This document shows positions 5,991-33,945 of a stretch of 64,000 bases of DNA, piece after piece. The number at the start of each line of letters is the position of its first letter. Within the stretch, counting starts at the first letter, position 1. The DNA is taken from contig NZ_JAIVAI010000001.1 in the NCBI RefSeq assembly GCF_020171525.1, positions 310,001 to 374,000 of the forward strand, given 5' to 3'. The translations under genes were made by a program, and so were the position numbers. Source of the stretch: Halobacillus yeomjeoni. Lineage in GTDB: Bacteria; Bacillota; Bacilli; Bacillales; Halobacillaceae. The notes beneath the pieces are model-generated. The model did not search any database. It saw only the letters and a program-made list of their open reading frames with translations, and was not told the DNA's origin.

Positions 5991-6020
5991 AAAAGTGGAC
6001 CTTTAAAAGGTCCACTTTTT
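5991..6020. terminator. Bidirectional intrinsic terminator between convergent genes
   Basis: Stem AAAAGTGGACCTTT / AAAGGTCCACTTTT flanked by A and T tracts serves the small membrane protein gene on one side and ispG on the other. Confidence 0.85.
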
Positions 6021-10645: not shown

Positions 10646-10721
10646 GGCTCGGTAGCTCAGTTGGTAGAGCAACGGATTGAAGCTCCGTGTGTCGGCGGTT
10701 CGACTCCGTCCCGAGCCACCA
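10646..10721 (+). tRNA. tRNA-Phe (GAA)
   Basis: A 76-nt cloverleaf with acceptor GGCTCGG / CCGAGCC, anticodon loop TTGAAGC (anticodon GAA) and encoded CCA. Last gene of the cluster, followed at once by a terminator. Confidence 0.93.
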
Positions 10722-10728
10722 TTTAAGT

Positions 10729-10757
10729 ATAACAAGCAGAGGCTTGTTATTTTTTTA
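10729..10757 (+). terminator. Intrinsic terminator of the tRNA cluster
   Basis: Stem ATAACAAGC / GCTTGTTAT, 4-base loop, seven T residues. Confidence 0.9.
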
Positions 10758-10818
10758 TGTTTGAAATTCACTAACAAGGGAATTCTTAATAGCGGGAGTT
10801 AAAGAAACTTCTTTATTC

Positions 10819-10860
10819 ACTTGCAAATAATTTGCAAGTATTAAGGTCGTTTGATAATGT
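10819..10860 (+). promoter_or_regulatory. sodA promoter region with a perfect 21-bp palindrome
   Basis: ACTTGCAAAT-A-ATTTGCAAGT (10819-10839) is a perfect dyad. Its right half supplies a TTGCAA (10832-10837) in the place of a -35 box; TAATGT (10855-10860) is 17 bases on, with GATAAT overlapping it. An operator overlapping the promoter is the natural reading. A second short dyad, TCATGG-AAA-CCATGA (10873-10887), follows in the likely leader. Confidence 0.55.
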
Positions 10861-10928
10861 AAAATTGAGAAGTCATGGAAACCATGATTTACTAGTTTTA
10901 CATATAACTTTAAAGGAGGAGTTTTACA

Positions 10929-11543
10929 ATGGCTAAATTTGAACTACCAGAATTACCTTACGCTTATGATGCACTTGAACCAACTATCGACAAGGAAACA
11001 ATGAACATCCACCATACGAAGCACCACAATGGCTATGTAACGAAGCTGAACAATGCTCTTGAAGGACATGCTGACCTTCAAGACAAATCATTAGAGGAGC
11101 TTCTTGCAAACAACATTTCTGTTGTACCGGAAGATATCCGTACAGCAGTTCGCCGTAACGGTGGCGGTCACGCGAACCACAGCTTGTTCTGGACAATCAT
11201 GTCCCCGAACGGCGGCGGTGAGCCGACAGGTGATTTGGCTACTCAAATTAACGATGCGTTCGGCAGCTTTGATCAATTCAAAGAGAAATTCGAAACGACT
11301 GCAAAAGGCCGTTTTGGATCTGGCTGGGCTTGGTTAGTCGTAAACAACGGCAACCTTGAAGTCATTGACACGTTGAACCAAGATTCTCCACTGATGGAGG
11401 GCAAAACTCCAATCCTAGGTTTAGATGTTTGGGAGCACGCATACTACCTGAATTATCAAAACCGTCGTCCTGACTACGTTTCTGCATTCTGGAACGTTGT
11501 CAACTGGGACGAAGTAGCAAAGCGCTTCGACGCAGCTAAATAA
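10929..11543 (+). CDS. sodA: Superoxide dismutase, Mn/Fe type
   Basis: Cytoplasmic enzyme dismutating superoxide to H2O2 and O2. The 204-residue protein has the normal family length and all metal ligands: the His in MNIHHTKHH (about 27), the His in [10 protein letters not shown] (about 82), and Asp and His in [11 protein letters not shown] (about 164 and 168). The GSGWAWLV active-site strand is present. Bacillus homologues use Mn; sequence alone does not settle Mn versus Fe. A strong AAAGGAGGAG precedes the ATG. It is monocistronic, with an operator-like palindrome at its promoter and a strong terminator. In B. subtilis sodA holds the same place before yqgE and pbpA. Confidence 0.97.
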
Positions 11544-28250: not shown

Positions 28251-28280
28251 AAGCGGAGCCTTTAAGGCTCCGCTTCTTTT
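28251..28280 (+). terminator. Intrinsic terminator after glcK
   Basis: AAGCGGAGCC / GGCTCCGCTT with a TTTAA loop and a C-interrupted T run. Confidence 0.78.
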
Positions 28281-33561: not shown

Positions 33562-33945
33562 ATGGATAAGTTAAAATTCTATAGTTACCCGAGTTGCACA
33601 TCATGCCGTAGGACTAAATCATGGTTAAAAAGCCAAGGGGTAGATTTTAACGAACAGCATTTGTTCCGTGAAACACCTTCTGCAGATGAGTTGAAAGACA
33701 TCCTTGCTCTGACGACTCAAGGAATTGATGAGATTCTGGCTAAACGTAGTAAGGAATATAAAGCTTTAGATATAGATGTCAATGAACTTTCATTGAATGA
33801 GTTTCTTAATCTGGTGATAGAAAAACCGAAACTGCTTCGTCGTCCAATTCTGACCAATGGTGAAAAACTTGTCATTGGATATAACTTAGAAGGGCTGAGA
33901 AGCATTACAGATAACCGGATGGAATACACAGCAAACATCTCATAA
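33562..33945 (+). CDS. mgsR: Spx/MgsR-family transcriptional regulator
   Basis: A 127-residue ArsC-like thioredoxin-fold protein with the redox CxxC switch in YPSCTSCRRTK (Cys 10 and 13 approximately) and the RPIL segment that contacts RNA polymerase alpha. Spx-family proteins alter promoter choice when oxidised. Size, position (yqgZ) and context support MgsR, which in B. subtilis controls part of the sigma-B general stress regulon. GAGGAGAG precedes the ATG. A dyad lies at its promoter. Distinguishing it from Spx rests on synteny. Confidence 0.85.
   Translation: MDKLKFYSYPSCTSCRRTKSWLKSQGVDFNEQHLFRETPSADELKDILALTTQGIDEILAKRSKEYKALDIDVNELSLNEFLNLVIEKPKLLRRPILTNGEKLVIGYNLEGLRSITDNRMEYTANIS

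Follow-up and report, generated by a model that had tools for sequence, protein, structure and literature searches.

The window, a stretch of 64,000 nucleotides from Halobacillus yeomjeoni, carries a sodA gene whose product scores 264.9 bits against the model NF008177, a value below the model's own cut-off of 363. Upstream of the gene lies a 21-bp palindrome, ACTTGCAAATAATTTGCAAGT, which consists of the arms ACTTGCAAAT and ATTTGCAAGT around a central A and is separated from the ATG of sodA (10929) by 89 bases. A preliminary description of this DNA had called the palindrome perfect, with 10-bp arms, had taken it to supply the probable -35 hexamer of sodA, and had pointed to a second dyad, TCATGG-AAA-CCATGA, in the leader. 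These observations were confirmed: all 10 pairs are complementary, the palindrome overlaps the probable -35 hexamer, which lies in its right arm, and the second dyad is present at 10873-10887. Further upstream, a tRNA gene (10646-10718) is followed by a terminator-like hairpin with a T-run (10729-10750), which stands directly before the -35 element of a σB-like promoter (Table 1).

Table 1. Coordinates of the sodA region and of the Spx/MgsR-family gene in the window
Feature	Position	Strand	Basis or remark
σB-like promoter: GTTTGA (10759-10764), 13 bp, GGGAAT (10778-10783)	10759-10783	+	10 of 12 matches to the σB consensus
21-bp palindrome	10819-10839		10/10 complementary pairs; symmetry not conserved
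TGCA, -44 element (-45 to -42), proposed Spx contact	10822-10825	+	Position as AGCA of trxB; GC conserved
AATAAT, A/T-rich -41 to -36, proposed α-CTD site	10826-10831	+	Analogy with trxB (PMC2801614, available text)
TTGCAA, -35 hexamer, with GC at -33/-32	10832-10837	+	17-bp spacer to TAATGT
Extended -10, TG-A-TAATGT (TG at 10852-10853, TAATGT at 10855-10860)	10852-10860	+	TGnTAATGT or close variants recur in orthologues
Putative 5'-terminal mRNA stem-loop (stem 10868-10893), holding the second dyad (10873-10887)	10867-10893	+	Fold from the probable +1
TTACATA motif between hairpin and Shine-Dalgarno	10898-10904	+	TACATA conserved
sodA, 204-aa superoxide dismutase (Mn type according to the top model match)	10929-11543	+	Best match NF008177
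Regulator of the Spx/MgsR family, which might read the -44 element in place of Spx	33562-33945	+	TIGR01617, 122.7 bits (cut-off 75.05)

A standard promoter scan proposed the neighbouring register TTTGCA-16-GATAAT, with 1 site found and 1.0 expected in shuffles. We used TTGCAA-17-TAATGT, which is the register that recurs in relatives. The -44/-45 numbering given here holds if the -10 element is that at 10855-10860, and transcription would then start at about 10867.

sodA was found in all 61 genomes searched (22 of the genus, H. yeomjeoni included, 15 of sister genera and 24 of other families), and the upstream DNA of all 61 was used to compare promoters. In the corrected register (see below), GC occupied -44/-43 in 49 of the 61 promoters, distributed as 22/22 in the genus, 11/15 in sister genera and 16/24 in other families. 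At a fixed distance downstream of it a -35 element with TTG recurs, followed by an extended -10. All 22 genus genomes have (T/A)GCA at -45 to -42, and positions -42 to -39 are all A or T in every one of the 37 family genomes; the T rather than A at -45 of the H. yeomjeoni site is shared by 32 of the 37 family members. A second GC, at -33/-32, is present in 22/22 genus and 36/37 family genomes, but in only 3/24 genomes of other families. The upstream GC is absent from 8 of the 24 other families, and in one genus, g6, TC stands at -44/-43 instead (GC in 0/4).

The same position was recovered by a blind promoter picker, which ignores -44 but favours TTG, so that conservation of the TTG of the -35 element is partly built in. 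GC appeared at -44/-43 in 46 of the 61 sodA loci; across the 13 bp that precede the -35 element, every other offset had it in 3 of 61 loci or fewer. For other families alone the picker found it in 15/24 loci, compared with 11/234 control upstream regions (Fisher p = 9e-12, a value that ignores kinship and for which all controls come from one genome). These controls were the regions upstream of predicted H. yeomjeoni genes, taken from the window together with further stretches of 0.4 Mb; those with a promoter score of at least 14 had GC at -44/-43 in 3 of 78 cases. The picker misplaced the H. yeomjeoni locus itself, where it preferred a site in the leader (16 vs 15), as well as L005 and L064. 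For the corrected register, its choice was replaced by hand at L002, L005 and L064.

Mutational analysis of the Spx-activated trxB promoter of B. subtilis, as given in the available text of PMC2801614, showed that AGCA at -45 to -42 is needed, G -44 and C -43 being indispensable, and that the promoter also requires GC at -33/-32 and a run of A at -41 to -36, where the α-CTD is proposed to bind. Because the positions and the spacing of the sodA GC pairs equal those of this mapped promoter, the sodA elements match the Spx promoter architecture. We propose that the sodA promoter is probably of the Spx type, with Spx acting on RNA polymerase to activate the gene. The functional units would be two asymmetric elements, TGCA at -44 and TTGCAA at -35, whose G residues lie 11 bp apart and which enclose an A/T-rich stretch. 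Oxidized Spx, bound to the α-CTD of RNA polymerase, would contact the GC at -44; the α-CTD would sit on the A/T-rich stretch between the -44 and -35 elements; and σA would use the weak TTGCAA together with the extended -10 element TGATAATGT. The expected outcome is activation of sodA under thiol or oxidative stress, to which the σB-like promoter some 80 bp upstream would add a general-stress input.

Not all published data point the same way. In B. subtilis nfrA, altering the leading three letters of the -44 element, the first of them included, lowered promoter activity (PMC2801614, available text); by analogy, the T at -45 of the H. yeomjeoni site would count against the Spx reading. The Spx motif is printed with 12 bases between its tetramers in the accessible part of PMC11481553, while the positions given in PMC2801614 imply 7, and the sodA site fits only the latter spacing. 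As for sodA itself, the available text of a B. anthracis Spx study mentions it once, in the title of a reference (PMC3831629). Among the B. subtilis proteins reported as changed in PMC7549824, members of the Spx regulon are named in the part of the paper at hand; SodA changed as well but is not named there.

The distribution of the -44 element over other genes known as Spx targets in B. subtilis was mixed. A directed pattern, AGCA-N6-TGGACG-17-TANNNT, was found at all 22 trxB loci of the genus, and the blind picker placed GC at -44/-43 in 17 of them. At trxA, blind picking gave GC in 3 of 21 loci, all of them terminator sequence when judged by eye; the promoter that recurs at trxA carries ACA where GCA would stand. 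(The trxA set left out L132, from G021 and below the cut-off, and the two second copies L133 and L134.) At msrA the layout occurred in none of 14 loci, a set taken from 14 of the 40 matches listed that mixes paralogues and has uncertain starts. With trxB carrying the element and trxA and msrA lacking it, the element is not found at every expected target, and the claim made for sodA is tempered accordingly.

A pattern search for sodA-type sites in the H. yeomjeoni genome returned 6 matches, vs 2 for the reversed control. Judged by eye, the five matches outside sodA lie, one each, inside a coding frame, before a tRNA, before a zinc-type ABC transporter gene, before a flavin oxidoreductase gene, and before short frames only. 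The flavin oxidoreductase site (L179, C2:187376-187414) has AGCA-N6-TTG with a fitting -10 and precedes a gene of the old-yellow-enzyme type by eye; it is a further candidate Spx-type promoter.

Three genes of the genome score above the Spx/MgsR cut-off. Spx proteins carry their switch in the C10xxC13 motif. One of the three genes encodes a canonical Spx, which scores 239.3 bits against NF002459 (cut-off 123) and matches PDB Spx chains, such as 3gfk and 7f75, over the full length; its ORF (L106) has C10/C13, G52, R60 and K62. The roles assigned to G52, R60 and K62, and in part to the cysteines, follow the available text of PMC2801614.

All 22 genus genomes agree with the σB consensus at 9/12 positions or more between -134 and -170 relative to the sodA ATG. 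This consensus is GTTTAA-N12-15-GGGTAT. When the match was allowed anywhere in the stretch, 34 of the 37 family genomes had one, three of them (all g6) elsewhere, near -65, as did 11 of the 24 genomes of other families, several of these close to the ATG; of 167 control regions, 26 satisfied the same rule at some point within 230 nt. In families f7 (L109) and f25 (L070) a 12/12 σB match puts GTTT at -45 or -44, where other families have GC, and in f15 (L060) and f17 (L110) a 10/12 match has GTTT at -44/-45. In all four the σB-like promoter overlaps the σA promoter. This exchange of GC for the σB GTTT is a post hoc observation from four genomes.

One gene of the Spx/MgsR family lies in the same window as sodA and falls just under the cut-off of the Spx subfamily model NF002459 (120.6 vs 123). 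Its presence there, the σB-like promoter upstream of sodA, and the placement of B. subtilis sodA in the σB regulon (PMC8957991, in the part available) are consistent with a different reading, in which this paralogue rather than Spx is the main reader of the -44 element and sodA is coupled to σB general stress. We regard this as unlikely, given that the -44 element is conserved far beyond the genus.

What remains is the palindrome as such. From the base composition, 0.08 perfect palindromes of the same form would be expected in the window, and three were seen (5995, 10819 and 28253); the form is thus rare but not unique there. The other two 21-bp palindromes, 5995-6015 and 28253-28273, also have one central base and are possibly terminators. 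A genome-wide search with the 21-mer had been suggested in the preliminary description as a means of defining a regulon; run on the H. yeomjeoni genome with up to three mismatches, it returned the sodA site only. The core pattern, searched with one mismatch, gave no clear excess over its reversed control (4+9 vs 5+5 strand matches). Exact copies of the 21-mer in contigs of other genomes amounted to three stretches, all clostridial, in a search whose reach may not have included records close to the H. yeomjeoni genome; by eye all three sit inside longer inverted repeats, and no neighbouring ORF listed for them is sodA.

The same description had made its case depend on conservation of the palindrome upstream of sodA in close relatives, and the congeners do not keep the symmetry. 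Of the 10 pairs, a mean of 6.4 are complementary in the 21 other congeners, 5.5 in the 15 sister-genus genomes and 3.0 in the 24 genomes of other families. Among those congeners, complementarity at the three outermost pairs holds in just 4, 3 and 9 of 21; none of the other 60 genomes reaches 10/10, the best being L006 with 9/10. Across the 27 distinct family sequences, none of the pairs exceeds the complementarity obtained by shuffling, and the outer pairs vary across orthologues with no covariation, so that dyad symmetry is neither maintained nor covarying. In other families, A at -32 in 21/24 genomes (a TTGAAA-like -35 element) destroys the palindrome, and AGC or TGC often stays, as in AGCAAATCGATTGAAA of L056, which has lost the palindrome and kept the -44 element. 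Since the two elements recur and the pairing is variable and uncorrelated, we conclude that the elements, not the symmetry, are under selection. Most likely, the palindrome represents two asymmetric promoter elements that mirror each other by chance in this species: their letters are similar, and a few chance matches at the outer positions would complete the mirror image. Column-wise letter draws from the genus set of 16 distinct 21-mers gave 10/10 symmetry in about 1% of cases, and the same draws put the chance of at least one perfect palindrome among 22 genomes at 0.16-0.23.

That last figure also counts against the view that the palindrome is a true operator, at which a dimeric repressor (a MarR-, TetR- or Fur-class protein, for instance) blocks the sodA -35 element. 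Such an operator would account for perfect 10-bp arms over the -35 element, and also for L006, where 9 of 10 pairs remain and the second is formed by other letters. The low and declining mean symmetry and the variable, non-covarying pairs argue otherwise, as do the lack of a second site at up to three mismatches and of a clear excess of the core, a picture that a regulator with a single site would also give. On the comparison of orthologues we rejected the palindromic operator as quite improbable. By general shape, MntR, PerR, Fur and Zur boxes were set aside as well. Of the repressor or activator that the preliminary description had implied, an activator remains the likeliest reading, and the symmetric site for an unnamed regulator is not supported, the conserved parts fitting the Spx/α-CTD architecture. 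A striking palindrome can arise from two adjacent asymmetric promoter elements, which is a trap for operator prediction. Least probable, in our view, is that the conserved GC at -44 simply belongs to an ordinary strong promoter, as an UP-like element or an extended -35 and with no regulator: σA consensus parts are present and B. subtilis sodA is expressed in normal growth, but GC at -44 is rare in the control regions, high-scoring ones included.

Under the Spx-type promoter, the second dyad would form part of a stem-loop at the very start of the sodA transcript. A longer stretch, starting at 10859, folds at -19.4 kcal/mol (z = -4.5), its outer arm lying partly upstream of +1. We counted a 5' stem if it began within +1 to +6, with single-base shuffles as the null. 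Such stems were found in 21/22 genomes of the genus (shuffles: mean 10.3, maximum 16), 14/15 sister-genus leaders (mean 4.4, maximum 9) and 18/24 leaders of other families (mean 10.9, maximum 17); among 37 control leaders there were 12 (mean 8.2, maximum 15). The hairpin is kept in structure across genera while its sequence differs. The second dyad thus fits better as the top of a 5' mRNA hairpin than as a second operator, and the most likely role of this hairpin is protection of the 5' end of sodA mRNA. No leader match to Rfam reached the gathering score, either for the window stretch or for 16 of the other 60 sodA loci.

Downstream of the hairpin, TACATA occurs no more than 45 nt from the ATG in 37/37 family genomes and 17/24 genomes of other families, and at 8 of 168 other H. 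yeomjeoni start sites (sodA set aside). Tentatively, these features could belong to an order-wide sodA module of three layers: an Spx-type -44 promoter, a 5' hairpin whose sequence is free to vary, and, before the Shine-Dalgarno sequence, a conserved UUACAUA that may bind an RNA or protein partner. In f7 and f25, and probably in f15 and f17, the -44 promoter of such a module would have been replaced by a σB promoter with GTTT at -44/-45.

Parts of this arrangement have counterparts in known systems. 5'-terminal stem-loops of the aprE and ermC type stabilize Bacillus mRNAs. Like these, the sodA stem begins at or near the probable +1; a stabilizing effect here is putative, and the stem sequence differs between genera.

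The closest likeness is to B. subtilis trxB, with which sodA shares (A/T)GCA at -45 to -42, an A/T-rich stretch at -41 to -36, GC at -33/-32, a G-to-G distance of 11 bp and a weak -35 element, as far as the trxB promoter is described in the available text of PMC2801614. The two differ in the target gene, in the base at -45 (T in sodA, A in trxB), in the extended -10 element TGnTAATGT of sodA, and in the -35 region, where TTGCAA is closer to the consensus than the trxB AGCG region. Another B. subtilis gene, nfrA, which is Spx-activated and has AGCA at -45 to -42, resembles sodA in having a -44 element; according to the same text (PMC2801614) it has no second GC element, as in 21 of the 24 sodA promoters of other families. 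It differs in the gene and the flanking letters, and the likeness is drawn from the published description rather than from a comparison of sequences.

For control of sodA itself, the parallel is with streptococci, where the gene stands under an Spx regulator, SpxA1: in the available parts of the two reports, in vitro activation is shown for genes other than sodA, and sodA expression falls in the spxA1 mutants of S. mutans (PMC4408037) and of group A Streptococcus (-3.74-fold; PMC13307992, a preprint). If the Spx reading is right, Spx-type control of sodA could be read from the DNA, and Spx control of superoxide dismutase, as reported in streptococci, would be old and widespread in this order too.
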